A DNA stretch of 64,000 nt from Amycolatopsis lexingtonensis (lineage in GTDB: Bacteria > Actinomycetota > Actinomycetes > Mycobacteriales > Pseudonocardiaceae): positions 188,501 to 252,500 of the forward strand of contig NZ_JADBEG010000001.1 in NCBI RefSeq assembly GCF_014873755.1. The letters are read 5' to 3'. This document shows positions 9,205-55,913 of this stretch, piece by piece; within the stretch, counting starts at the first letter, position 1; each line of letters begins with the position of its first letter. The translations under genes and the position numbers were made by a program. The notes beneath the pieces are model-generated. The model saw only the letters and a program-made list of their open reading frames with translations, made no database searches and was not told the origin of the DNA.

Positions 9205-9816
9205 ATGAGCGGCGTGCGGAACCTCCTGCTCGCGGCCGTCGCCGTGCTCGCCACCGGGTGCTCGCCCGAGGTCGCCGGGCACGCCGCGCCCACCGGCTTC
9301 GTCGTCAAGGACGGGACGGTGCTGCGGTTCCGGCCGGTGCTGGCCGAGGCGCCACCGGGACCGGCGGCCGGTCCGGCCGCCGGGCGGCAGAGCACCGATC
9401 CCGCCGCCCAGCAGGCCGCCGTGCAGGGGTTCGACTGCGCCCAGGGCAAGCCGGATCCGCTGGACGGCCGGGACGATCCGGCGCTGCCGCTGGTCAGCTG
9501 CGACCGCGTGCAGGGCACCAAGTACCTCCTCGGCCCCGGCTTCCTCAGCGGTGCGGACGTGAGCCGGGTGGACGCCGCGCTCGACCCGGCGACGGGCAGC
9601 TCGGTCATCAACCTCAGCTTCACCGCCAAGGGCGCGCAGACCTGGGCCGACTGGACCGCCCAGAACGTCGGCAAGCAGGTCGCGATGGTGCTCAAGAGCC
9701 GCGTCCTGACCGCGCCGACCGTCCAGTCGGCCATCGCCGGCGGGGAAACGCAGATCAGCGGGAAGTTCACCCTGCCGGAGGCCCGGCAGCTGGCGAAGGA
9801 CATCGCCGGCGGCTGA
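9205..9816 (+). CDS. Lipoprotein with SecD-like periplasmic head domain
   Basis: A 203-residue predicted lipoprotein. LLLAAVAVLATGC is a signal peptide ending in a lipobox, with the lipidated cysteine near residue 18. The mature part resembles the SecDF P1 head subdomain of the protein-export accessory factor SecD, particularly AMVLKSRVLTAPTVQSAI followed by TQISGKFTLPEARQLAKDI. No SecD membrane domain is present, so it cannot act as a full SecD; it would be tethered to the outer face of the membrane. Function is unknown. It begins 14 bp after the GH76 gene and may be co-transcribed. Confidence 0.75.
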   Translation: MSGVRNLLLAAVAVLATGCSPEVAGHAAPTGFVVKDGTVLRFRPVLAEAPPGPAAGPAAGRQSTDPAAQQAAVQGFDCAQGKPDPLDGRDDPALPLVSCDRVQGTKYLLGPGFLSGADVSRVDAALDPATGSSVINLSFTAKGAQTWADWTAQNVGKQVAMVLKSRVLTAPTVQSAIAGGETQISGKFTLPEARQLAKDIAGG

Positions 9817-9819
9817 GCC

Positions 9820-10293
9820 TCAGCAGGTCGCGATGTTTTCGGTGCAGGCCTGCGTCTCGGACTTGTTCGTCGCCTGGTGGAGCAGTTCGTAGAGCTGCTC
9901 GCGCTGGTCGTCGCTCAGCGCGTGGAACACCTCGTCCTCGACCGCGGCGAGCGCGAACTCGGCACGGACGAGCAGCTTCGCGCCGACGTCGGTGAGCTCG
10001 ACGACGTGCCGGCGCCGGTCGACGGGGGAGCGGCGCCGCTCGATCAGGTTCTCGGCTTCGAGGTCGTTGAGCAGCCCGACGACGTTCGTGCTGTCCATTT
10101 CCAGGATCTTCGCCAGGTCCTGCTGCGAGCTGCCGCCCAGGTCGCGCAGGACGGTCAGGGCGATCAGGTGACGCGGCCGCAGGCCGAGGGGCTTGAGCAC
10201 GGAATCGCTGCGGGTCTGCAGCCGCCGAGTCAGCTGGCCGAGCAGCGCCCCGCAGCGGTGGGGCGGCTGGTTCACGACCGGCAGCGACGTCAT
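9820..10293 (-). CDS. MarR-family transcriptional regulator
   Basis: A winged-helix MarR protein of 157 residues from the ATG at MTSLPVVN; an upstream TTG would add eight residues. HTH and wing appear as SSQQDLAKILEMDSTNVVGLL and RRRSPVDRRRHVVELT, the DxRxxxxxLT pattern of the family. It is divergent from a flavin-dependent azoreductase-like gene only about 80 bp away and probably represses it in response to quinones, dyes or other electrophiles. The convergent lipoprotein gene ends 3 bp from its stop. Confidence 0.88.
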   Translation of the reverse strand: MTSLPVVNQPPHRCGALLGQLTRRLQTRSDSVLKPLGLRPRHLIALTVLRDLGGSSQQDLAKILEMDSTNVVGLLNDLEAENLIERRRSPVDRRRHVVELTDVGAKLLVRAEFALAAVEDEVFHALSDDQREQLYELLHQATNKSETQACTENIATC

Positions 10294-10375
10294 GCGCCCA
10301 GTATATGGCCGGTTCAACGGTCGGTGTGCTATTAATGGTTTGTCTTACACCAACGATCTATGGGCGGCTAACGAC

Positions 10376-11017
10376 ATGGCGCATCTCCTCCACATCGACT
10401 CGAGCATCCAGGGCGAGCGCTCGGTGAGCCGCCGGCTCAGCGCGCGGGCCGCGGCGGCGTGGCGCGCGGCGCACCCGGACGGCACCGTCACCTACCGCGA
10501 CCTGGGCGCGCACCCGTTGCCCCACATCGATTCCGCGAGCGGCATGGCCGGCATGGTGCCGCCGGAGCAGCGCACGCCCGAGCAGGCGGCCGCGTGGGCG
10601 CGGACCACCGAGCTGGTCGGCGAGATCAAGGCGGCCGACACGGTCCTGCTGGGCCTGCCGCTGTACAACTTCGGCGCGCCGAGCAGCGTCAAGGCCTGGG
10701 TCGACCACCTGATCGCCCCGGGACTCTCGGTCGACCACGAAACGCAGACCGGCCTCCTCGGCGGCCGCGAGTTCATCGTGCTGGCGTCCCGGGGCGGCGG
10801 GTACGGCGAGGGCACGCCCCGCGAAGGCTGGGACCACGCCGAGCGGTGGCTCCCGCACGGCGTCTCGCTGACCGGCCTGGAGCCGCGCTTCATCACCGCG
10901 GAGCTGACGCTGGCCCACGTCAACCCGGCGATGGCGGAGCTCATCCCGCTGGCCGACGCGAGCCTGGCGACGGCGGAGCGCGCGATCGACGAGCTCTGGC
11001 TCCCGGCCCGCGTCTGA
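10376..11017 (+). CDS. FMN-dependent NADH-azoreductase / quinone reductase
   Basis: A 213-residue flavodoxin-fold oxidoreductase. HIDSSIQGERSVSRRL is the FMN phosphate-binding segment, LPLYNFGAPSSVKAWVDHL is the hallmark AzoR-type loop, and SRGGGYGEGTP contacts the isoalloxazine. These enzymes reduce quinones and azo compounds with NAD(P)H and protect against electrophiles. The ATG before AHLLHIDSS fits the fold's first beta-strand; the longer frame runs back into the MarR promoter. Divergence from MarR suggests a quinone-responsive pair. Confidence 0.87.
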   Translation: MAHLLHIDSSIQGERSVSRRLSARAAAAWRAAHPDGTVTYRDLGAHPLPHIDSASGMAGMVPPEQRTPEQAAAWARTTELVGEIKAADTVLLGLPLYNFGAPSSVKAWVDHLIAPGLSVDHETQTGLLGGREFIVLASRGGGYGEGTPREGWDHAERWLPHGVSLTGLEPRFITAELTLAHVNPAMAELIPLADASLATAERAIDELWLPARV

Positions 11018-40225: not shown

Positions 40226-41800
40226 TCACTCCGGTGTGGTCGGTTCGGTGTCGACCTGGATCAGCCGCGGGCCGTCCGGGGTCGACTTGAGCTGGTCGAG
40301 CAGGTCGCCGGCATCGGTGACGGTGGTGGCCGGGACGCCGTAGCCGGCGGCGATGGCGGTGAAGTCCAGCCCCGGGATCTCCGTGCCCGGCACGTCCGGC
40401 GTGCCGAGCAGCTCGCCGAACCACCGCAGGGCGCCGTAGACGCCGTTGCGCAGGATCACGAACGTGACCGGGACGCGGTAGTGCGCGGCGCTCCACAACG
40501 CCGTGATGCCGTAGTTCGCCGAGCCGTCGCCGATGACGCCGACGACCGGGCGGTCCGGGCTGCCCATGGCGACGCCGACCGCGGCGGGCAGGCCGAACCC
40601 GAGCCCGCCGGCGGCCGGGAAGAAGTACGAACCCTCGCGGCGCAGGTCCATTTGCCGCCACCACGCCGAGTTCGTCGACGTCGATTCGACGACGTACCGG
40701 GTGTCGTCGGTCTGGGTCTCGCGCAGCGCGGCGAAAACCTGTTCCGGGTGCAGCGCTTTCGCGCCGGTCTTGGGCTCCGGGTTCGCGGCGAACTCGCCGG
40801 CCGGGGGCCGGGCGGGCAGCTTCGCGAGCAGCGCCTCGATGACCGGGGCCGGGTCGGCCACGAGCGCTTCGCCCATCGGGGCGCGGGCCGCGGCGCCGAA
40901 GTCGTCGGTCACCTGGATCAGGCGCGTGCCCTCCGGCAGGTACTCGCCGGGGACGTGCTGGTGGTAGCGGAACACCGGCGCGCCGAGCACCAGCACGAGG
41001 TCGTGCCCGGTGAACGCGGCCGAGATCGGCGCGATGCCGGCGGGCAGCACGCCGCGGAACAGCGGGTGCCGGTTCGGGAAGGGCAGCCGGTGCGGCGACG
41101 GTGCCACCCAGGTCGGCAGGCCGAGGTGCTCGGCCAATGCGACGGCGCGGTCGAACAGGCCGGTCGCGTCGACGTCGCCGCCCAGCACCAGCGCGGGGTT
41201 CTGCGCCCCGGCCAGTGCCGCGGCGAGCTCATCGAGCTGGGCCGGGCTGGGCGCGAGTCCCCTTTGGACGTTCCGGTTCAGCGTCGCGGCGGCGTTGGCG
41301 GGCAGTTCGGCGGCCCAGTCGTCGTAGGGGACCGACAGGTAGGTCGGGCGCCGGTGCAGCTCGGCCTCGAACACCGCCTGCGCGAGCGACCGCGGGACGT
41401 CTTCCGCGCAGCTCGGCTCGCCGGCCCAGCCGACCAGCGGCCGCATCAGCTGCGTGGCGTCGACGTTGGCGAGCATCGCCTCGAGCCCGATGGCCGACCG
41501 CACCTGCTGGCCGGCGGTCAGCACCAGGGGCGAGCGCGAGTAGACGGCGTTGGTCAGCGCGCCCATCGCGTTGCCCGACCCGGCGGCGGCGTGCAGGTTG
41601 ACCAGCACCGGGCGGCCGGTCGCCTGGGCGTAGCCGTCGGCCATCCCGACGACGGCGCCTTCGTGCAGGCCGAGCACGTACCGGAAGTGCGACGGCAGCT
41701 CGGCCAGGAACGGCAGCTCGTTGGAGCCGGGGTTGCCGAAGATCGTGGTCAGGCCACGGCGGTCCAGGAACTCGTGGGCGAGCCGGCGGGCGGTGGGCAT
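40226..41800 (-). CDS. mdlC: Benzoylformate decarboxylase
   Basis: A 524-residue TPP-dependent decarboxylase close in length to characterised benzoylformate decarboxylase (528). FGNPGSNELPFLAELPSHFR with LGLHEGAVVGMADGYAQATG includes the catalytic glutamate; LNRNVQRGL follows the N-terminal domain; GVIGDGSANYGITALWSAAH is the TPP GDGSxxY site. It converts benzoylformate to benzaldehyde, which the next enzyme oxidises. ATG at MPTARRLAHE follows GAGGAGGA; a longer frame upstream would run through the promoter. Divergent LysR likely activates the operon. Confidence 0.88.
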   Translation of the reverse strand: MPTARRLAHEFLDRRGLTTIFGNPGSNELPFLAELPSHFRYVLGLHEGAVVGMADGYAQATGRPVLVNLHAAAGSGNAMGALTNAVYSRSPLVLTAGQQVRSAIGLEAMLANVDATQLMRPLVGWAGEPSCAEDVPRSLAQAVFEAELHRRPTYLSVPYDDWAAELPANAAATLNRNVQRGLAPSPAQLDELAAALAGAQNPALVLGGDVDATGLFDRAVALAEHLGLPTWVAPSPHRLPFPNRHPLFRGVLPAGIAPISAAFTGHDLVLVLGAPVFRYHQHVPGEYLPEGTRLIQVTDDFGAAARAPMGEALVADPAPVIEALLAKLPARPPAGEFAANPEPKTGAKALHPEQVFAALRETQTDDTRYVVESTSTNSAWWRQMDLRREGSYFFPAAGGLGFGLPAAVGVAMGSPDRPVVGVIGDGSANYGITALWSAAHYRVPVTFVILRNGVYGALRWFGELLGTPDVPGTEIPGLDFTAIAAGYGVPATTVTDAGDLLDQLKSTPDGPRLIQVDTEPTTPE

Positions 41801-41888
41801 GGCGCGGGTCCTCCTCGGGCGGGTTGGACCAGACCCTAGGGAGGCCACCGGGTTGTGCTCCAATAAATGTTGCCGTGGTCGTTCATAG

Positions 41889-42791
41889 ATGGGATCGATG
41901 ATGCGGGACTTCGACCTGAACCTGGTCCGGACGTTCGTGCTGCTCTATGAGACCCGCAGCGTGACCGCCACGGCCGAGTCCCTGCACGTCACGCAGCCGA
42001 CGATCAGCTACAGCCTGCAGAAGCTGCGGCGCCGGTTCTCCGACGAGCTGTTCCGCCGCAGCGGCAGCGGCCTGGTGCCCACGACGACCGCCCGGGCGCT
42101 GTACGAGCCGCTGCACAGCGCGCTGTCCGGGATCGAAACGGCGGTCAGCGGCGCCTGGTCGTTCGACCCGGCTTCGGCGCGGGCCGCGTTCACGCTCTGC
42201 CTGTCGGACCTGGGGGAGATCTCGCTGCTGCCGCGGCTGATGGCCGCGCTGCCGTCGCGCGCTCCCGGCGTGACGCTGACGGTCCGTCCCCTCGACGTCG
42301 ACCGCGCCGCGGACCAGCTCGGCCGCGGCGAGATCGACGCGTTCATCGCGTCCCCGCTGATCAGCTCGCAGCGCGTGGCCCGGATCCCGCTGTTCTCCGA
42401 GGGCTACCTGGGGATGGTCGCGTTCGACCACCCGCGTCTGCAGTCGCGGGTCGACTTCGCGTCGCTCGCCGCCGAGCGCCACGTGACGGTGTTCGGCCCG
42501 ACCGGCCACGACGGCCCCCGCCGGGCCCTGGAGGCGCACGGCCTGCTCGACCGGGTGGTGCTGGAGGTGACCCGGTTCGCCGCCTTGCCGTACCTCGTCC
42601 AGGACGGCGAGCTGGTGGCGATGGTCCCGCGCCTGGTGGCGGAGATGTTCGCGGCCGAGCACCGGGTCCGCCTGTTCGACCTGCCGATGGACGTCGAGCC
42701 GGCGCAGGTTTCGGTGTACACGCGGCACACGCACGCGCGCAGCCCGGCCCAGCACTGGCTTGTGACATTCATGCGCGAAGTGCTCAGCTGA
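41889..42791 (+). CDS. LysR-family transcriptional regulator
   Basis: A LysR regulator of 300 residues (297 or 296 from the inner ATGs at MMRDFDLNL). HTH: RSVTATAESLHVTQPTISYSL followed by KLRRRFSDELFRRS; the effector domain follows with RAAFTLCLSDLGEISLLPRL, resembling the NahR/NodD-like aromatic-responsive group. It is divergent from the benzoylformate decarboxylase operon, 88 bp between starts, and is the likely aromatic-acid-responsive activator of that operon. Confidence 0.88.
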   Translation: MGSMMRDFDLNLVRTFVLLYETRSVTATAESLHVTQPTISYSLQKLRRRFSDELFRRSGSGLVPTTTARALYEPLHSALSGIETAVSGAWSFDPASARAAFTLCLSDLGEISLLPRLMAALPSRAPGVTLTVRPLDVDRAADQLGRGEIDAFIASPLISSQRVARIPLFSEGYLGMVAFDHPRLQSRVDFASLAAERHVTVFGPTGHDGPRRALEAHGLLDRVVLEVTRFAALPYLVQDGELVAMVPRLVAEMFAAEHRVRLFDLPMDVEPAQVSVYTRHTHARSPAQHWLVTFMREVLS

Positions 42792-42924
42792 TTTAACACG
42801 CATTTTTCTTGGCGCCCATTTCCCGCCGAAAGATCTGGGCCGAACGTGTACTGCTTGGTGCGGAACCGATCCAGCGCTGCCTAGGGTCGATCACGGTCCT
42901 GGAACCGAACTAGGGAGGAATCCG

Positions 42925-43002
42925 GTGAAGCTCGTCCGGCTGGTCAAGAAAGCGCTTCCCAAGAAGAGCCTGAAGTCGTACGCCTGGTACGGCTGGATCT
43001 GA
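42925..43002 (+). CDS. Atropopeptide-type RiPP precursor peptide
   Basis: A 25-codon gene with its own strong ribosome site (AGGGAGGA, 6 bases before GTG). The peptide has a basic leader (MKLVRLVKKALPKKS) ending in LKSYAWYGWI. The C-terminal AWYGWI matches the AWYxWx pattern of tryptorubin A (AWYIWY), and a lysine-rich leader with KSL-xY before the core fits what I recall of atropopeptide precursors. A single P450 gene follows 55 bp later, the family's minimal architecture. W21, Y22 and W24 are the probable crosslink partners; Ile replaces the terminal aromatic. GGAACC repeats at 42862 and 42901 are a weak hint of an ECF-sigma promoter. Confidence 0.85.
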   Translation: MKLVRLVKKALPKKSLKSYAWYGWI

Positions 43003-43008
43003 TCACCC

Positions 43009-43035
43009 GGCCGGTCCCGGTCACCGGGACCGGCC
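43009..43035 (+). terminator. Attenuator hairpin between RiPP precursor and P450
   Basis: GGCCGGTCCCGG (43009-43020) pairs perfectly with CCGGGACCGGCC (43024-43035) around TCA, starting 7 bases after the precursor stop. There is no U-tract, so it is better viewed as an mRNA-stabilising or partial-attenuation structure that lets precursor be made in excess over enzyme, as is common in RiPP operons. Confidence 0.7.
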
Positions 43036-43057
43036 CCTTCCCGAGGAGTCCCGGAAC

Positions 43058-44110
43058 GTGGTCATCGCCCGCGCGTCCCGCACGGTCGTCTTCGCCCCTC
43101 GTCTCGAGCAACTGCTCGCCACGCACATCGGTGACGGCGTTTTCCGGCTCGAACCGGACACCATCGGGATCGCGGACCCGGAAACGATGGACGGCGTGCT
43201 CCGGGCTCGTCCGGCCAACGCCGAGGAACGGCCCACCTTCAAACCGGTGCTGGGCCGCGGCGTCACCCGCACCGAGTCCGCCTCGCTGATGCAGGCGCTG
43301 GGCGCCGACGTCCGTGCGGCGTTGAAGCGTCCCGCCGACCGGCCCGATCTCACCGGCACCTGGCCGGACGTCCCGCACGACTACCTGCGCCGGTTCGTCT
43401 TCGGACCCGAACTGCGCCGCTTCCGCGTGCTCGTGGACCGCCGCCTGGAGCTGACGCCGAAGCTGACGTGGTCGGCGGTCACCGCGGGCGCCGCGCTGGT
43501 CCGCCCGCCGGCGCCCGGCACCCCGCTTTCCACGCTCGCGCGCCAGGTCGTGGCCGCCGAGAGCCTGGCCGAGCGGCGCTTCCGGATGTACCTCTACCGC
43601 CGGGTCGCCGGGCCGATCTGCTTCACGGTGGCGGCCCTGGTCACCAGCGCGGTGTGGCTCGGCGCGCCGTTCGACGACGACGTCCCGAACGAGTACGTCA
43701 TCCACGAGGCGCTGCGGCTGCTCCCGCCGTCGTGGAACATCCTGCGCGTCCGCTCGCCGGAGTTCGCCGCCGTCGACCCGCGGATCGGGGCCGGGGACGA
43801 CGTCCTGCTGCTGCCGCTGCTGAGCCACCGGTCCCCGGAGCTCTGGGAGGCTCCGGCCGAGTTCCGGCCCCGGCGCTGGGCCGGGCTCGACCCGGACACC
43901 CACCCGGGGTACCTGCCGTTCGGGCACGCGAACGAACGCTGCTGGGGCCGGCACCTGGTGCTGCCGCTGGCGAGCAGGCTGCTCGACGTCGTCCGCGCCG
44001 AAGGCCTGGTCCCGGACCCGCGCCGGACCCGGGCCCGCGTCGAGCTCGACGGCCTGCTGGAGCCGTCGGGCGTGCGGGTCGTCAGGCCGGGGAGCAGCGG
44101 GCGCCGTTGA
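43058..44110 (+). CDS. Cytochrome P450, atropopeptide crosslinking enzyme
   Basis: A 350-residue P450, shorter than the usual ~400. ExxR is E217-A-L-R220 in NEYVIHEALRLLPPSWN, the PERF-like segment is PAEFRPRRWAG, and the heme loop is FGHANERCWG with ligand Cys295. The I-helix region (ICFTVAALVTSAVWL) lacks the acid-threonine pair used for oxygen activation in monooxygenases, a feature compatible with oxidative aryl coupling. GTG start 10 bases after GAGGAG. Placed directly after the AWYGWI precursor, it should form the aryl crosslinks. No ferredoxin, protease or exporter gene accompanies it. It overlaps the convergent CBM2 gene by 29 bp. Confidence 0.85.
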   Translation: MVIARASRTVVFAPRLEQLLATHIGDGVFRLEPDTIGIADPETMDGVLRARPANAEERPTFKPVLGRGVTRTESASLMQALGADVRAALKRPADRPDLTGTWPDVPHDYLRRFVFGPELRRFRVLVDRRLELTPKLTWSAVTAGAALVRPPAPGTPLSTLARQVVAAESLAERRFRMYLYRRVAGPICFTVAALVTSAVWLGAPFDDDVPNEYVIHEALRLLPPSWNILRVRSPEFAAVDPRIGAGDDVLLLPLLSHRSPELWEAPAEFRPRRWAGLDPDTHPGYLPFGHANERCWGRHLVLPLASRLLDVVRAEGLVPDPRRTRARVELDGLLEPSGVRVVRPGSSGRR

Positions 44111-44858
44111 GGGCGAACGCGGCGGGCGCCGGGTTGCCCTGGCCGGAGGCGCCGTTGAAGCCGAAGCCGACGGTCGCGCCCGGGGCGAGGGTGGCGTTGT
44201 AGGACGCGGCGGTGATGGTGACCCGGTCACCGTTCTGGGCGAAGTCGCCGTCCCAGCTGTGGGTGACGTGCTGGCCGGCGGTGAACGTCCAGGTCAGCGT
44301 CCACGGCGAGCGCGTTTCGCCGCTCTTGTTGGTGACGGTGACGTTCGCGGTGAAGCCGTCGTTCCACTGGTCCGTGACGGAGTAGCGCACGGTGCACAGC
44401 ACGGGCGTGGCGGTCGGGGTCGGAGTCGTGGACGGCGGCGCCGTGGTGGCGGACGCGGTCTGCCGCAGCACGGTGGGGATCGGCGTCGGAGCCGGCTTCG
44501 GCACCGGTGTCGTTGAGCGCGGGGTGGTCGTCGCGGGAGCGAGCGAGTCCGCCACCGTCGCCGTCTGCCGTCCCGGTGCGCTTTCGGACGTCACCGCGAT
44601 GAGCACCAGGCTGCCGACCACCACGGCGGCGCCGCCGAGCGCGGAGATCCACCGGATCCGCCGCCCGGCCCGCTGCTGGTGCGCCGCGGCCTCGCGCGCC
44701 CGCTGCTCGAGGCGCTCGCGGTAGCCGTCACCGGTGTCTTCCTCGCGCGCGGCCGAGGTTCCGGGCGCCTCGCCGAGTGATCGCGGGGTCGCCCCGGTTT
44801 CCCGGAGCAGCTCGGCGACGGAGATCTCCTCGTCGCGTCGACGGCCGGTGCGCGCCAT
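44082..44858 (-). CDS. Membrane-anchored CBM2 carbohydrate-binding protein
   Basis: A 258-residue protein in four parts: a charged cytoplasmic N-terminus (ISVAELLRETGATPRSLGEA, a motif of actinobacterial anti-sigma-like or membrane proteins), one transmembrane helix at about 71-90 (ISALGGAAVVVGSLVLIAVT), a Thr/Pro-rich linker, and a C-terminal family 2 carbohydrate-binding module (YSVTDQWNDGFTANVTVTN, WTLTWTF, NGDRVTI, paired cysteines in LCTVRY and GARCSP). It would present a cellulose- or chitin-binding module outside the cell, possibly signalling across the membrane. ATG at MARTGRRR gives the natural start. Confidence 0.82.
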   Translation of the reverse strand: MARTGRRRDEEISVAELLRETGATPRSLGEAPGTSAAREEDTGDGYRERLEQRAREAAAHQQRAGRRIRWISALGGAAVVVGSLVLIAVTSESAPGRQTATVADSLAPATTTPRSTTPVPKPAPTPIPTVLRQTASATTAPPSTTPTPTATPVLCTVRYSVTDQWNDGFTANVTVTNKSGETRSPWTLTWTFTAGQHVTHSWDGDFAQNGDRVTITAASYNATLAPGATVGFGFNGASGQGNPAPAAFALNGARCSPA

Positions 44859-45015
44859 ACCCGGAACCTCCCGTTCTGCGGCCCGACCGGCGAATCCTAG
44901 GAAGCCGGAGCGGCCTTGTAAACCACGTGCACGCCGCGTGCACGAGACGGTGACACGGCGGGAGTTCCCTGGGGTCGTGGCCGGATCAGCCGGCCGGGAT
45001 CCCAGGAGGTTTCCG

Positions 45016-45960
45016 ATGTCCGAGAAGAAGATCATCGCTGTCGTCGGCGCGACCGGGCAGCAGGGTGGCGGGCTGGCCCGCGCCATCCTCGACGACCCGG
45101 AGCAGCGGTTCGCGCTGCGTGCCCTCACCCGCAACCCGGACTCCGACGCCGCCCGCGCGCTCGCCGCGCGCGGAGCCGAGGTCGTCGCCGCCGACCTCGA
45201 CGACGAAGCGAGCCTGACCAAGGCGTTCGAAGGCGCGTACGGCGCCTACCTCGTCACCGCGTTCTGGGAGTACAACTCCGTGGAGCGCGAACAGCGGCAG
45301 GCCCGCGCGATGGCCGGCGCCGCGAAGGCGGCCGGGCTGCGGCACGTGATCTGGTCGACCCTGCCCGACACCCGCCTCCACCTGCGCGACGAGGACCGCA
45401 CGCCGACGCTGCACGGGCGCTACAAGGTGCCGCACTTCGACGGCAAGGCCGAGGCCGAGGCGTTCTTCGTCGAAGCGGGCGTGCCCACGACGTTCCTCTC
45501 GACGACGTTCTACTTCGAGGCCTTCGTGGACTTCTTCCGCCCGGTCCGCGACCCCGACGGCGTCCTTGCGCTGCACCTGCCGATGGCTAGCGGGCGGCTG
45601 CCGGGCATCGCGGCCGAGGACATCGGGCGCACCGCGTTCGGCGTCTTCGCCCGCGGGCCGGAACTCGCGGGGGAGACGATCAGCATCTCCGGCGAGAACC
45701 TGACCGGCGAGGAGTACGCGGCGGCGTTCGCGAAGCAGCTCGGCACCGACGTCGCCTACCGGCCGATGGCCGTCGAAGACCTGCGCGCTTCGGGCGCGCC
45801 CGGCGCCGACGACCTCGCGAACATGTTCTTCTACTACGCCGAGCACGAAAACGTGTTCGCCGGCGCGCGCGACCCGGAGGCGGTGCGGCGGCTGAACCCG
45901 CGGCTGCAGGACTTCGCCGGCTGGCTCGCCGACCACCGCGACGCTTTCGGAGAGCTGTGA
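45016..45960 (+). CDS. NmrA-family NAD(P)-binding protein
   Basis: A 314-residue Rossmann protein with VVGATGQQGGGLARAILDDP as dinucleotide motif, then ALTRNPDSDAARALAARGAE and HVIWSTLPDT, all typical of the NmrA/HSCARG group. Such proteins bind NADP(H) as redox sensors or act as isoflavone-reductase-like enzymes. The ATG follows AGGAGG. Its stop overlaps the next gene's start, so it is coupled to an LLM flavin oxidoreductase; the pair may act in one redox step. Confidence 0.88.
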   Translation: MSEKKIIAVVGATGQQGGGLARAILDDPEQRFALRALTRNPDSDAARALAARGAEVVAADLDDEASLTKAFEGAYGAYLVTAFWEYNSVEREQRQARAMAGAAKAAGLRHVIWSTLPDTRLHLRDEDRTPTLHGRYKVPHFDGKAEAEAFFVEAGVPTTFLSTTFYFEAFVDFFRPVRDPDGVLALHLPMASGRLPGIAAEDIGRTAFGVFARGPELAGETISISGENLTGEEYAAAFAKQLGTDVAYRPMAVEDLRASGAPGADDLANMFFYYAEHENVFAGARDPEAVRRLNPRLQDFAGWLADHRDAFGEL

Positions 45961-49009: not shown

Positions 49010-49480
49010 ATGACCGGCCTCGTGCAGCCGCTCGCCCTCCCAGCCCGCACCCGAGCAGCTGAGCCGAGCCCGGGACCGGCCAGAGCGCTCATCCCACTGC
49101 CGGTCCCCGCGCTGCCGGATCTGGCAGCCACGGGGCAGCGGCGGTTCTCCACCGCGCTGCTGGACACCTCCGGCCGGATCCAGGACCGAAGCATCGTGAC
49201 CGCCCTGGACTGGAAACCGGGGGACCGGCTGCTGATCACCCAGATCCGCTCGTCCGCGGTGATCTGCCGGCGCGGCGACGGGATCTTCCGGATGACCACC
49301 AAACCCTATGTCGTGCTGCCCGCCCCGGTCCGCCACGGCTGCGGCGTGCTCGCCGGCAGCCGGGTCCTGCTTGTGGCCGACCTGGCCCAGGACGTCCTGG
49401 TCGTGCACCCCGAACACGTGGTCCACGCGATGCTGCGCGACTTCCACGCCTCCCTCGCCGCTGGGGAGGCGGACCGATGA
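49010..49480 (+). CDS. AbrB/MazE-like protein, integrase-linked
   Basis: A 156-residue protein. The C-terminal half, PYVVLPAPVRHGCGVLAGSR and VLLVADLAQDVLVVHPEHVV, has the beta-rich swapped-hairpin pattern of AbrB/SpoVT DNA-binding domains; the N-terminal half may hold a second degenerate copy (FSTALLDTSGRIQDRSIVTA). ATG after GGGGAGG. Its stop overlaps the integrase start (ATGA), so it probably regulates or assists recombination. A divergent paralogue lies on the other side of the integrase. Confidence 0.65.
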   Translation: MTGLVQPLALPARTRAAEPSPGPARALIPLPVPALPDLAATGQRRFSTALLDTSGRIQDRSIVTALDWKPGDRLLITQIRSSAVICRRGDGIFRMTTKPYVVLPAPVRHGCGVLAGSRVLLVADLAQDVLVVHPEHVVHAMLRDFHASLAAGEADR

Positions 49481-50523
49481 CCGAGACCACGACTACGAAC
49501 CCCGCTGACCTCGAGGCCGCGCGGCTGCTGCTTGAGCGCCTGGGTGTCAACCCCGCCGACCTGCTCACCGAACCGGCCGAGGACAGCGACCACGAGCCCG
49601 TCCCGACGATCAACGAATGGATCCCCGTCGTCGCCGGCCTCGTCTCGGCCAGCACCGCCGCCTCCTACGGCTCCTACTGGAACAAGGCCGAAGCCGCGTG
49701 GGACGGGCGCCGGATGGACACCATCACCGCCAGCGAGATCAAGACCCAGGCCGAGATCGTGCGCCGCACCGCCCGGGTCCGCCGCAACTCCCGCGGCGGC
49801 CGCAACGCCGCCGAGAACTTCATTGCCGCCATCCGCTGCCTCTACAAGCACCTGGTCAACGACAAACGCATGGATGACCGTGACAACCCGGCCACGCGCG
49901 TCACCAAACCACGGCGCAACCCCTCCACCCGCCGCGGCCTGGCCGCCGCCCGGCTGGCCGAGCTCTCCGACGTCGTCGCCAGCACCGGCAACGACCCGGA
50001 GCTCGACGCCCTGATCTGCCGGTTGCACGTCGAGACAGCCTGCCGCCGCGGCGGCGCACTGAGCCTGCGGCCGCGAGACCTCGACCAGCAGCAGTGCCTC
50101 ATCCTCCTGCGCGAGAAAGGGGAGACCGAACGCTGGCAGCCTGTCTCACCCACCCTGATGCGGCACCTGGTCGCCCACAGCGACGAACGCGGCGACGGCG
50201 ACCGCAACGGGCAGCTGCTGCGCTATGCCAGTGGCAAGCCGATCACCGGCCGCCGCTACGACTACATCTTCAATCGCGTCCAGAACGCACTCGACTGGGC
50301 CAGGGCCATGGGCGTGTCCGTGCACTGGCTTCGCCACACCACCCTGAAGTGGGTCGAACGCCGCTTCGGCATCGGTGTCGCCCGCGCCTACGCCGGTCAC
50401 GCCGAAAGTGGTAGTGACTCGAGCACCACGACCTACATCAAGGCCGACATCACCGAAGTCGCTGCCGCCCTGTCGGCCCTGACCGGCGAGCCACACCCAC
50501 TCGCACTCGATACCGCAACTTGA
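49477..50523 (+). CDS. Tyrosine recombinase / integrase
   Basis: A 348-residue phage-type integrase. An N-terminal SAM-like core-binding domain (TAASYGSYWNKAEAAWDGRR) precedes the catalytic domain, in which Arg190/191 (ETACRRGGAL), His283-Arg286 (HWLRHTTL), His308 (YAGHAE) and Tyr320 (SSTTTYIKA) provide the R-H-R-H-Y set, so it appears active. It probably integrated the island at tRNA-Leu, 600 bp away. A 16-bp hairpin terminates the transcript. No excisionase or conjugation gene was seen. Confidence 0.9.
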   Translation: MTETTTTNPADLEAARLLLERLGVNPADLLTEPAEDSDHEPVPTINEWIPVVAGLVSASTAASYGSYWNKAEAAWDGRRMDTITASEIKTQAEIVRRTARVRRNSRGGRNAAENFIAAIRCLYKHLVNDKRMDDRDNPATRVTKPRRNPSTRRGLAAARLAELSDVVASTGNDPELDALICRLHVETACRRGGALSLRPRDLDQQQCLILLREKGETERWQPVSPTLMRHLVAHSDERGDGDRNGQLLRYASGKPITGRRYDYIFNRVQNALDWARAMGVSVHWLRHTTLKWVERRFGIGVARAYAGHAESGSDSSTTTYIKADITEVAAALSALTGEPHPLALDTAT

Positions 50524-51389: not shown

Positions 51390-53135
51390 TCACCACGCGG
51401 CCAGGTATACGTGGCTTGGAGCCGTGCCAGCTGTGTGCGGAAGCCTGATGAGGTGAATGCCGGACTCGGTAGTTCCGATGTGACGAGCGAGCAGGTTGAG
51501 GAGTGTCGCCGCTGTCGCGGCCAGGTCCGTGGCCGATCCGTGAAATGTGGGCACCGAGCATCCTCGCGTCGGAACCAATTCTTCGCCCGGAGCCGGGTCG
51601 CGCCAGAAGACCTCGTATTCCTGAAGATCATTCCGCTTTGCGACTTGCGCGCCGGCCGCGGTGTCGAGGTCGGTGAAGGTACGCGGTGAGCCAGGGGCGC
51701 GAACGATCATCAGCCCTCGTGTCGCGGAGGCGTTGTCGGTGGCGACCTGACAAATGAGCGGCTGACTCGTGTCCGTGACGCACCGGATCAGACTGTCGAG
51801 GAACGTCGCCACCGTGTTGGATACCGTCGCGTCGATGAGCACGTCGCAATCGGGGTGGGTGTGATCCATGCCGTAAGGGACGAGGCTGCTGTGCGGGGTC
51901 ACGATGAGCTCGTCCGAGATGAGGCGAAGGCGGTCGGCGAGCTTTTGGGCTTTGTTGCCGCCAACGTCGTTCTCAACGTAGTTCTGGCGGACCAGTAGTC
52001 CGCCGGTGATGTCTCCGTTGTCGCGCAGGGTGATTCTCTTTGCGCCGGCGCGTGCGACGAACTCGGCGATCCAGCTGCCCAGGCCGCCGCAGCCCCAGAT
52101 CTCGACGCTCAGATCCTGGAACGCGGCCATGGGGCGCGTGGAGTCCCTGCGGGTGACTACTTCCGGCCGTTCGTCGGAGATCATGCACCACTCCATTCGG
52201 TCGTCGCTGGGTATGCGGCTGATCAGGTCGGTGACGAGTGGTCCGTGCTTCCTGACTTCGCTTCTGAACTGATCGGCCAGGTGGGTTGGCACGCGACCTC
52301 CAATGAGGTGGTACCGACCGCCGTCGTCTCGCCGCTCGGGAGCGGCGATGATCAGGTACTGCGGAGTGCCCGGCTTGTTCCTGGCGGCGGTGTGGGCCAG
52401 CGCGGTGGCGACGGTGTCGGCATAAACGTGTGCGGTGCAGGCAATCGCATCGAGGACTTCCGACACGGTATGTCCGGCTCCGTACACGAGGTGGTTGTCC
52501 AACACAACGACCAGCGCCAGGTGATCGGCGCCGTGGAGGAGCTTCCAACCCGCTAGGTCCAGTCTGTCCTGCGTCCGCGCGGATAGGCCCGCGTGAAGCA
52601 TCCTGCGGCCGATCGGATTGAAGCTCTGGCGCGCCACAATCATAGGAGTACCGGGCGTATGGTGCAGCACGCCACCGACCGGGTGGTACATGGCATCGTT
52701 GGCGTCGAACGCACCACCGGCGGCGTTGACGAACCAGTCCCACAGCCGATTGAGAAAGCCGCGTACCCCGATGTCCGGATGCCACTCACGGGTGGGGTCG
52801 AGGTAGACGCACAACCGTCGGCCCTCGAGCACGTGTGCGTGGCCAACGAACCGATCATGATCGACCCATACGTCTGGAGGAATGATGGGAAATCCCGGGC
52901 CGAACCTCATGATCAGCTCTTCGTGGTCGCGCGAGACCGGCATACCACCCGGCCGGGTCGTCAACTCGTTGACGGCCAAGCGGATGCGGACCCCCAGTGC
53001 GCCGTCCCCGGCGGGCGGATAGGTCTCTGCGATCTTGAGTAGGGACCGGTGCTCAGCCGCGACCTGGCGCAACTCTCGGAGGGCATCCTGCTGGCCCCGG
53101 GTGTAGGTAGTCCGATCTCCTTTCCGGCGACTCAT
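51390..53135 (-). CDS. cap2: CBASS Cap2: E2-E1 ubiquitin-like transfer fusion
   Basis: A 581-residue protein with an N-terminal E2-like domain (about 20-150; active-site-type Cys109 in EGRRLCVYLDPTREWHP) and a C-terminal ThiF/E1 adenylation domain (ATP-binding GCGGLG at 348-353, DATVSNTV, catalytic Cys526 in TRGCSVPTFHGS). This domain order and both cysteines define Cap2 of type II CBASS, which conjugates the C-terminal glycine of the CD-NTase to cellular targets and primes it. It starts 7 bp after the CD-NTase, whose last residue is Gly. No Cap3 (JAB) deconjugase gene is found. Confidence 0.9.
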   Translation of the reverse strand: MSRRKGDRTTYTRGQQDALRELRQVAAEHRSLLKIAETYPPAGDGALGVRIRLAVNELTTRPGGMPVSRDHEELIMRFGPGFPIIPPDVWVDHDRFVGHAHVLEGRRLCVYLDPTREWHPDIGVRGFLNRLWDWFVNAAGGAFDANDAMYHPVGGVLHHTPGTPMIVARQSFNPIGRRMLHAGLSARTQDRLDLAGWKLLHGADHLALVVVLDNHLVYGAGHTVSEVLDAIACTAHVYADTVATALAHTAARNKPGTPQYLIIAAPERRDDGGRYHLIGGRVPTHLADQFRSEVRKHGPLVTDLISRIPSDDRMEWCMISDERPEVVTRRDSTRPMAAFQDLSVEIWGCGGLGSWIAEFVARAGAKRITLRDNGDITGGLLVRQNYVENDVGGNKAQKLADRLRLISDELIVTPHSSLVPYGMDHTHPDCDVLIDATVSNTVATFLDSLIRCVTDTSQPLICQVATDNASATRGLMIVRAPGSPRTFTDLDTAAGAQVAKRNDLQEYEVFWRDPAPGEELVPTRGCSVPTFHGSATDLAATAATLLNLLARHIGTTESGIHLIRLPHTAGTAPSHVYLAAW

Positions 53136-53142
53136 GGCGCGG

Positions 53143-54315
53143 TCAGCCGGCGCGGCCCGAGCGTGTGCGTACGGCAGGAACCTCGCCGAACCGGCCGGTC
53201 GACTTGCCTGATGCGGCAGTCGTCACTGCCAGTCCGGCGGATGCGGTGCGCGCTGCCGCAATGACGTTCGGATTCTTGTTCTCGAGTCCCATGCGCTGCG
53301 CGGACTTCAGCAACAGTCCTTCATCGAAGGCGCCGCCGAGGCTGCCGATAACGCTGGCTGTGTCGCGTCGGGTTGATCGCGTGGCTTCGGTAAGAGTTTG
53401 GCGCAGGCTGCCCAGCCACGAGTGGAACTTCTCCCGTCGCTCGTTGGGCTCGTTCCACTTGTCGGCAAAGTTCTCGAGCCTGTGCGCTGGGTTAGGAACC
53501 CACCACTTGCCGTCGCGATTCTCGATGTGCGCCGGCATGTCATTCACCGCGTTGATGGCCGCCGTGAAGAGATCCTCTTCTCCTTGGTAGGCCCACGCGG
53601 CCAACGTGGTGATCAGAACCGAGGGCGGGCGGTCACCGATGTCCTTGGCGAAGTAGCGGTAGCAGTGCCACTTGAACACCTGCACCATCCGCTGCAGCGT
53701 GGACCTTTCCGTCCACATCGGTACCATCGCGACACCTGCGGCGCGGGCCTTGACCTGCAGTTTCCGGTGCAGCTCCTCCGAGCGTCCCTGGAACCAGTCG
53801 GAGTAGCCTTTGGGGTTGCTGTACTGCCAGAAGTGGCTGTTCGTGTCAGTGAGCCTGATACTGGTCGGCGGCCGCTCGTCGTCCGGAATTGCCGGGAGCA
53901 CGTCTAGGTGAAAGCCCAGGTCGGGGTAGGTCAACGTCCATGCGCGGCGGCCTGCAACGCACAATGCCGGGCCGTCCCCATTGCCTTCTTCCGTCTTAAA
54001 GCCGTCGTAGGCTTGGAGCAGTTCCCCGACCTCGGTCTTCAGCTCATCTTTCGTGGTGTCGTCCTTCGAGACGTCCTTGTGACACACCAGGTCGATGTCG
54101 TACTCGGTGTTCGACGTGGGCGGCTTGATAACGGTCCCGATCCGGAAGGAACCTTGCGGATACACGGACCACTCCGCGCCGCCGCTGAGCACCAGGAAGT
54201 TGCCGACGTCCTCGTACCGCTCGACCGCAACGGAATGGAGTTTCGGCGGGATGTCGAGGATGTCAGCGGCGCCGGTGAAGAGTAGGGAGATCGTCTCCTC
54301 GACGGGAGGCGGCAT
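53143..54315 (-). CDS. CBASS CD-NTase (cyclic oligonucleotide synthase)
   Basis: A 390-residue nucleotidyltransferase. The pol-beta core shows GSFRIGTVIKPP and the catalytic EYDIDLV, with a third acidic residue in FHLDVLPAIP; a helical OAS-like C-terminal domain follows. It synthesises a cyclic di- or trinucleotide upon phage infection. The C-terminus RSGRAG ends in glycine, the residue Cap2 uses for conjugation. Start at MPPPVEE follows GGAG; a longer frame overlaps the effector gene without homology. Placed between a SAVED effector and Cap2. Confidence 0.9.
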   Translation of the reverse strand: MPPPVEETISLLFTGAADILDIPPKLHSVAVERYEDVGNFLVLSGGAEWSVYPQGSFRIGTVIKPPTSNTEYDIDLVCHKDVSKDDTTKDELKTEVGELLQAYDGFKTEEGNGDGPALCVAGRRAWTLTYPDLGFHLDVLPAIPDDERPPTSIRLTDTNSHFWQYSNPKGYSDWFQGRSEELHRKLQVKARAAGVAMVPMWTERSTLQRMVQVFKWHCYRYFAKDIGDRPPSVLITTLAAWAYQGEEDLFTAAINAVNDMPAHIENRDGKWWVPNPAHRLENFADKWNEPNERREKFHSWLGSLRQTLTEATRSTRRDTASVIGSLGGAFDEGLLLKSAQRMGLENKNPNVIAAARTASAGLAVTTAASGKSTGRFGEVPAVRTRSGRAG

Positions 54316-54373
54316 GGCGATTGCTCCGTTCGGACAAAGGGATGAAGTGGGGACGCTCAGGACCCCGAAAGGT

Positions 54374-55609
54374 TCAGCTGGGACCGCGGCCGTCAGCTGA
54401 TCGGGTGGTGATCGTGTACTGATATGTGCCGTCTCCGAGCCGGTCGAAGATCCGCAGCGGGGGATGAGCCGCATGCATCAGGTGTCTGCCGATGGACACC
54501 GCCGCCGTCGCGGGTACGGCCGGGAAGATCGAAATCTCGGACGCGCCAGGATGATCAGCCTCGATTGTGGACAACAGGTGGCGCCAGCACTGGGAAAAGT
54601 CGTCCAGGCATCGTTGGGTCTTGATTAGCTCCACGACGGGAAGCTCGACCGGCCGGAGCTCGTACACTGTGTACGCCTCGTCGATTTCCGCCGGGAGACG
54701 GTCGAAGTCGATCGACCCCGACACCGAGAACACGACGGCGACCTTCGCCATGACGGTGCCAGTGCATTTGGCCGTGTAGGTGAACTCCACCGGGTCCGCC
54801 GTGTCGTCCCAGCCCCAGGACTCCACACCGTCGCGGCGCTTCGGGTACAGCTCGGTCTTCACAGTCTCGTCGAGCATCGTGCCCAGGACCACTAGGATCG
54901 GGATCCGCGCGACGGCGAACACGGACACGCTGTCCACGGCCTCGCGGTGAACGTGGTTGCGCAGGGAAGCGAGCTGATGCTCCAGCTGCGCACGCGCCAT
55001 GATCCAGAACTCGGGCGCGCTCTCCACCTCGCCAGGTAGTCGGCGGAGGTCGACCTCGAACTCGTCCGCGCCATTGAGCAGCGTCCAGTCTGGAAACTTA
55101 TCCCTGGCCAGGAGCGCCTTGTTGATGCTCTGCCTGCTGACTTCGACGGCTTTGCCGTGCAAGGTGCTGACGACACGCAGCACCGTCGTCCGGTTGCTCT
55201 CACGGAGCCCGGTCAGGCTCTTGATTTGACGCTCGTGCGTGCGCTTGAGCCTGCGCAAGGTCTCGGTGTCGTAGATGTCCCACAGGCTCAGAGTGTCGAC
55301 GACGTGGTGCTGGTCATAGCAGAGCAACATCAGGTTTTCGGGGGTGTTCCGCTGGTTCGGAGGTAGGTCGGCGTCACCGCGTGGAGAACCCGACGCGGTC
55401 GACCAGCCGACAATATGCGCTAGCTGGCCGACGGACACGTCCTGTCCGGTCCACTCCTCGGCCAGCAGGTAGCGGTTGCAGATTGTGCACCGACCGCCCG
55501 CGGCCGTCCACACATAGCGAGCAATGGCCTCGCTCACGGTGCGGGTCTCGCCGTGGGGGCCTACAACGCGCGTCGACGAGGAGCGCTTCCGGGGCCGGGC
55601 GGTCATCAT
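54374..55609 (-). CDS. cap5: CBASS effector Cap5: HNH nuclease-SAVED protein
   Basis: A 411-residue effector. Residues 40-105 form an HNH endonuclease (GGRCTICNRYLL, QLAHIVGW, NTPENLMLLCYDQHHVVD). The C-terminal half (about 200-411) is a SAVED domain, recognisable from FAVARIPILVVLGTMLDE and ISIFPAVPATAAVSIGRHLM, which binds the cyclic nucleotide made by the adjacent CD-NTase and activates DNA degradation. It is the first gene of the operon. ATG pair at MMTARPRK follows GGAGG; a TTG upstream is less likely. Confidence 0.9.
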   Translation of the reverse strand: MMTARPRKRSSSTRVVGPHGETRTVSEAIARYVWTAAGGRCTICNRYLLAEEWTGQDVSVGQLAHIVGWSTASGSPRGDADLPPNQRNTPENLMLLCYDQHHVVDTLSLWDIYDTETLRRLKRTHERQIKSLTGLRESNRTTVLRVVSTLHGKAVEVSRQSINKALLARDKFPDWTLLNGADEFEVDLRRLPGEVESAPEFWIMARAQLEHQLASLRNHVHREAVDSVSVFAVARIPILVVLGTMLDETVKTELYPKRRDGVESWGWDDTADPVEFTYTAKCTGTVMAKVAVVFSVSGSIDFDRLPAEIDEAYTVYELRPVELPVVELIKTQRCLDDFSQCWRHLLSTIEADHPGASEISIFPAVPATAAVSIGRHLMHAAHPPLRIFDRLGDGTYQYTITTRSADGRGPS

Positions 55610-55913
55610 GTCGGCCTCCAAGCGCTACTTGCCTTTACTGTCGGCACAAGTCTGCACGACACCACCGACAATTTCGGACGCGACCGGCCGGCTGCCCGAT
55701 GGAACGAGGTCGGTATAGGTAACTGTGTAGGGCGGATGGCGTTGCGGGCGTGCGGCGATACGATGGCGGAGGTGTCGCTGACAGCCGAGTGAACAGCGGC
55801 CCGGCCTCGGCGAGGATCAGCACGTAGACGGTGATGACAGGCGCGATCCCCGCCCTCGCGGTACCGGCGGAGGCCGTGGAATCGTCCCTGGATCAGGGCG
55901 TGCCCGCGCGGAG

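Follow-up and report, generated by a model that had tools for sequence, protein, structure and literature searches.

The DNA analyzed here, a 64,000-nucleotide (nt) stretch of Amycolatopsis lexingtonensis (contig NZ_JADBEG010000001.1, hereafter the window), carries at positions 42925–44110 of its plus strand what is almost certainly a genuine atropopeptide cluster of the tryptorubin family. A 25-codon precursor gene is followed 55 nt later by one cytochrome P450 gene. We further consider it probable, with less assurance, that this is a minimal two-gene cluster of the bitryptide (xWxxW) type, directing a ribosomally synthesized and post-translationally modified peptide (RiPP) with three cross-linking bonds. 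An earlier note made from the sequence alone had described a ribosome site, a 25-codon gene and one P450 55 bp downstream as a minimal atropopeptide-type RiPP cluster with an AWYGWI core. The open reading frames (ORFs) at 42925–43002 and 43058–44110, a curated precursor model, the conserved loci and a P450 tree all bear this out.

Atropopeptides, small and rigid cross-linked peptides, are recognized by a class-defining P450, by KSLK in the leader and by Trp as the second core residue; 683 putative clusters have been reported (PMC11450843). The window precursor is GTG-started, has the ribosome-binding site GGGAGGA (42913–42919) 5 nt ahead of its start, and encodes MKLVRLVKKALPKKSLKSYAWYGWI. This 25-mer matched the NCBIfam model NF038372, 'tryptorubin family RiPP precursor', at 44.2 bits (E 1.7e-11) against a cut-off of 33. 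The KSLK motif or a relative of it, which the class requires in the leader, is present as KSLK itself at residues 14–17 (42964–42975); PMC11450843 gives 17–20 for its set, which reflects how long the leaders are or how their residues are counted. The core AWYGWI, bounded by analogy with characterized members at residues 20–25 (42982–42999), has Trp at positions 2 and 5, the definition of a bitryptide as cited in PMC11450843. That such a gene is easily missed, as the note had it, applies only to annotation without the curated NCBI precursor model; NF038372 exists. When the upstream regions of 20 loci were aligned, conservation was highest in the GGA/AGG block. Little that might mark a shared promoter was conserved beyond this ribosome site in the same alignment, and no sigma-70 promoters were found in a scan of 42700–44200.

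A homologue scan using one genome per species confirmed P450 relatives in 87 stretches; retaining the 80 best left 79 loci (numbered L; genomes are numbered G). In 79/79 of these, the P450 is preceded by an ORF that resembles a precursor and has Trp as its second core residue, 72 found by a strict pattern and 7 by a looser one. Together with the NF038372 match, this places the small ORF beyond chance. Within the same genus, the family P450 was present in 25 of 80 genomes at 26 places (E up to 1e-40), 25 with an intact precursor and 20 with the core AWYGWI; the other cores were AWYQWI, AWYNWI, AWYLWI, AWYIWW and TWIHWS. For L108 the second of two candidate ORFs was chosen by hand as the precursor. 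At the 26th place, L103, the codon for Trp2 is replaced by TGA while the P450 frame is open, which indicates that decay does occur. One might then view the window ORF, short and GTG-started as it is, as a chance or decayed frame next to a P450 with some different function; its retention across the kept loci and at nearly every same-genus place, and its passing of the curated model, leave this view next to no credence. In L103 (G018) itself, the TGA reflects either decay of the cluster or an error in sequencing. In wider samples the P450 was found in 11/297 genomes of the bacterial family (own genus included), 3/394 of the class and 48/392 of the genus of G473. Phage records gave no match.

The P450 gene (43058–44110, plus strand) starts with GTG behind the ribosome-binding site GAGGAG (43043–43048) and encodes 350 residues. 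Its product and SvaB, from the characterized varsorubin cluster, share 63% identity and nest in one clade; class membership was judged on these two grounds. The window enzyme thus clusters with atropopeptide P450s and not with unrelated monooxygenases. The ExxR motif (E217–R220, 43706–43717) and the heme-ligand cysteine C295 (codon 43940–43942) are present, with E217, R220 and C295 invariant in 43 aligned P450s. A long, I-type helix is predicted at residues 170–202 (43565–43663); it includes Y178 and the stretch P186-I187-C188-F189-T190. The note had reported that the acid-threonine pair is lacking here. No acid does precede the candidate threonine, but the same alignment shows no variation at P186, C188, F189 or T190, and a threonine may therefore be retained at the usual place if the presumed register holds. 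The window's own genome holds one copy of this P450, with other matches 30–34% identical over part of the protein. Assignment to another P450-RiPP family, either a biarylitide or an aminopyruvatide type as with ApyO, was also weighed. ApyO (NF050147) was the best NCBIfam P450 match, yet this was weak (64.8 bits, residues 212–309 only) and far under the cut-off of 525. The precursor passes the tryptorubin model, and it and the P450 lie in the same order as their counterparts at the sva locus; such an assignment is highly improbable. The fold searches, with 50 matches listed for each, gave general P450s; the absence of a biarylitide P450 among the matches listed says nothing either way.

The phylogeny of the P450 was estimated by quick maximum likelihood from 104 rows (100 different, some of them the same species from two collections), without bootstrap and excluding L067 as too short. 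The window P450 falls inside a 46-row clade with a Shimodaira–Hasegawa-like approximate likelihood ratio test (SH-aLRT) value of 99, comprising 42 AWYGWI cores and one each of AWYGWV, AWYNWI, a broken core and SWYQWL. Amycolatopsis, Streptomyces, Kitasatospora, Nocardia and Umezawaea are among its named organisms. The SWYQWL row, L024, is the characterized sva cluster of Streptomyces varsoviensis: its match at 9555–10574 lies inside the 9365–10577 given in PMC11450843, and its precursor ends KSLKAYSWYQWL. The cores need 29 changes on the tree, and each of 200 shuffles needed more (mean 57.5). The conserved AWYxW peptide that the note expected at the same position in relatives is present, and the rarity it implied does not hold, as AWYGWI is the core in 42 of the 104 rows. 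Rather than being a single occurrence, AWYGWI predominates within one P450 clade. As a major, conserved atropopeptide core in actinobacteria, it makes its product a sensible target for isolation.

Two groups of divergent relatives were seen alongside. L109 (G070) is a second P450, 38% identical, in an Amycolatopsis-type genome; its precursor, MKLVRRVKEMFESKSMRRYTWIHWS, has the core TWIHWS and KSMR instead of KSLK. L168–L171, from the genus of G473, encode P450s 37–38% identical, with upstream ORFs ending DEDLANHAWVLHVI (DEDLASHAWVLHVI in L171) that have a WxxH core and lack KSLK. The computed mass of AWVLHVI minus 2 H, 834.4752, fits the name gristide 834 in PMC12299652, from which we infer the identity of their product.

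Between the two genes lies a perfect hairpin (43009–43035, plus strand), its 12-bp stem formed by 43009–43020 and 43024–43035 around a TCA loop. It is terminator-grade, is contained in the 55-nt gap and leaves the P450 ribosome site uncovered. Compared with 100 dinucleotide shuffles, a stem longer than expected (p ≤ 0.05) was found in 63 of 93 distinct precursor–P450 gaps; among 279 windows drawn at random from these loci and compared with 40 shuffles, the number was 13. Gaps belonging to AWYGW-type cores plus SWYQWL and AWYNWI had the stem in 36/39 cases. The exceptions were L013, L015 and L018, whose gaps are shortened by an upstream start candidate; long stems could be drawn in their full gaps, with folding energies not clearly below simple shuffles (z −0.2, 0.7 and −0.6, respectively). 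When gaps of 40–160 nt were compared, using genes called by a simple ORF rule and 40 shuffles for the controls, the stem was found in 62/84 precursor–P450 gaps, 11/102 co-directional, 19/53 convergent and 1/33 divergent gaps. Over 19 sequences of the Amycolatopsis type, the stem pairs in 99.1% of 228 pair cells; two of the 12 pairs change on both sides, three on one side and seven never. The covariation score exceeded 500/500 shuffles and the count of pairs changed on both sides 478/500; the number of pair types in these sequences was no better than shuffled. Rfam gave no match up to E 1 on 42780–44150. Other RiPP systems are known to have inverted repeats downstream of their structural genes. 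The hairpin here is likely a partial terminator or mRNA-stabilizing element that keeps P450 expression below that of the precursor. Such a throttle on the P450 would fit the 100-fold gain in yield obtained by placing a ribosome site before svaB (PMC11450843). The words hairpin, terminator and stem-loop are absent from the searchable main text of PMC11450843 and PMC12352619. If this role is borne out, the hairpin would offer a handle on yield.

In the proposed route to the product, the basic leader with its KSLK motif would dock on the P450 and thread AWYGWI to the heme, where oxidation would link the side chains of the three aromatic residues, Trp2, Tyr3 and Trp5. Proteases encoded elsewhere would then remove the leader and often the N-terminal Ala as well. 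The main product would most likely resemble varsorubin B1, with a Trp–Trp C–C, a Trp–Tyr C–N and a Trp-to-backbone C–N bond. The note had held that, for want of a final aromatic, the crosslink pattern must differ. This does not follow, because varsorubin B1 (core SWYQWL) has these three bonds with none on its last residue, and the last-residue Tyr of laurentirubin is bridged only by a second P450 (PMC11450843). Nor need each crosslink cost 2 H, as the note had assumed, since the three bonds of varsorubin B1 cost 4 H (PMC11450843). Computed [M+H]+ values for AWYGWI are 795.3824 linear, 793.3668 (−2 H) and 791.3511 (−4 H), and for WYGWI 724.3453, 722.3297 and 720.3140; a three-bond product would thus appear at 791.3511 as the hexapeptide or 720.3140 as the pentapeptide. 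AWYGWI has the same elemental composition as the varsorubin pentapeptide WYQWL (Ala+Gly = Gln; Ile = Leu), so intact mass alone cannot separate the two.

Several points weigh against this account. No product has been seen for the core AWYGWI, the stem test found no hairpin in 30 of the 93 gaps, and the hairpin has no T-tract, a scan of 42700–44200 for T-tract terminators having found none. The products of SvaB include one with three bonds and one with a single bond (PMC11450843), and ScaB, near the root of the family tree, gave monocyclic, one-bond products from 13 of 15 precursors (PMC11450843, PMC12352619). The window enzyme might accordingly form a single Trp–Trp biaryl bond (C–N or C–C), yielding monocyclic WYGWI ([M+H]+ 722.3297) or WYGW (609.2456) after the fashion of scabrirubin and varsorubin B2a, which carry one bond each. 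We regard this as possible but unlikely: the window P450 shares its clade with SvaB, the maker of three-bond varsorubin B1, and most characterized atropopeptides have a complex three-dimensional shape (PMC11450843), one marked by three bonds, a pyrroloindoline and the bridge-above configuration. The three-bond product remains our preferred reading. The family is known and the subclade well populated; a description of the product was not found. The searchable main texts hold no report of an AWYGWI product; the core itself may well figure in the list given in the supplement to PMC11450843. Of the strings AWYGW, WYGWI and AWYGWI, only AWYGW occurs among the papers listed, in one on an insect peptide (PMC7547115).

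The identity of P450 residue 178 varied with the core. Among the first 104 P450s, residue 178 was Tyr or Phe when core position 4 was G, N or Q, and Gly when it was L, I, H, F or A; L109 was an outlier with Ala178. A second set of 62 loci (L110–L171) yielded 58 precursors by pattern, of which 31, below 97% identity to the first set, served as held-out sequences. Two of the 31, L115 (AWYGWY) and L117 (AWYGWD), broke the rule, both having Gly178, and tracking of position 4 alone by residue 178 was rejected. Both are unusual cores (genomes G329 and G090), with Gly at position 4 and no aliphatic residue at position 6. The combined rule (G/N/Q at 4 plus I/L/V at 6) is therefore post hoc. It gave Tyr/Phe178 in 54/54 rows and in 0/107 others (161 rows), or 41/41 versus 0/83 after dereplication at 97%; V64 was found in 54/54 and 1/107, respectively. 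Residue 178 changes only twice on the tree, leaving the sign test (p 0.5) powerless. The second change is L105 (AWYQWI, Phe178), placed among Pseudonocardiaceae enzymes with Gly178, including two from Kutzneria. Several other columns also separate the large clades, and at most of these L105 does not follow the large clade. We tentatively raise two undescribed design rules of atropopeptide clusters, a joint reading that we think more doubtful than not: that the hairpin throttles the enzyme, and that a pocket switch decides the accepted core, V64 with Tyr/Phe178 admitting G/N/Q at position 4 with an aliphatic position 6, and L64 with Gly178 the rest. If true, exchanging residues 64 and 178 should make a tryptorubin-type enzyme accept cores of the AWYGWI type, and the pattern would provide a way to predict or change the core accepted. 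Neither the hairpin nor the residue 178 split appears in the parts of the atropopeptide texts that were searched.

The unit most likely consists of these two genes. Of 15 loci tested, the 4 closest have matching neighbors in conserved order, with L006 matching only in part on the luciferase side; the remaining 11 gave no match beyond the P450 (E 1e-15, 40% coverage). A LysR regulator (41889–42791), a thiamine pyrophosphate enzyme (40226–41863, minus), a CBM2 protein (44082–45221, minus) and NmrA and luciferase-like genes were each rejected as cluster members on this comparison and, being matched only in the closest relatives, are most likely bystanders. Further away, PADLOC models and Pfam ThiF and Prok-E2_A identified an operon (51390–55621, minus) resembling a cyclic-oligonucleotide-based antiphage signaling system (CBASS), with a SAVED-HNH-type endonuclease effector (54374–55621), a CD-NTase cyclase (53143–54474) and an E1-E2 protein (51390–53135). 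A phage-integrase-family recombinase (PF00589, E 2e-8; 49477–50523, plus) lies about 1 kb away and perhaps forms a mobile island with it.

Tryptorubin A, for which the note gives the core AWYIWY, ends in an aromatic residue. This core occupied 15 tree rows with Gly178, compared with Tyr178 in the window P450. The trp cluster shares with the window a precursor plus one P450, a KSLK leader and an AWYxW core (PMC11450843). Amyxirubins, equated with clavorubins (PMC11450843), belong to the same family; L110, on a Streptomyces clavuligerus plasmid (core AWYIWW, P450 58.8% identical to that of the window), is by its name presumably the clavorubin locus. Scabrirubin, made by ScaB, is of the same family and has a WxxW macrocycle, but differs in its heptapeptide core TWFIWYS and single C–N bond (PMC11450843, PMC12352619). 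The sva cluster, source of the varsorubins, has the same two-gene order and a 25-residue precursor with KSLK (PMC11450843). It also resembles the window in its xWYxW core, aliphatic last residue, intergenic hairpin and closely related P450, and differs in the core itself, SWYQWL rather than AWYGWI, and in having Phe rather than Tyr at P450 residue 178.
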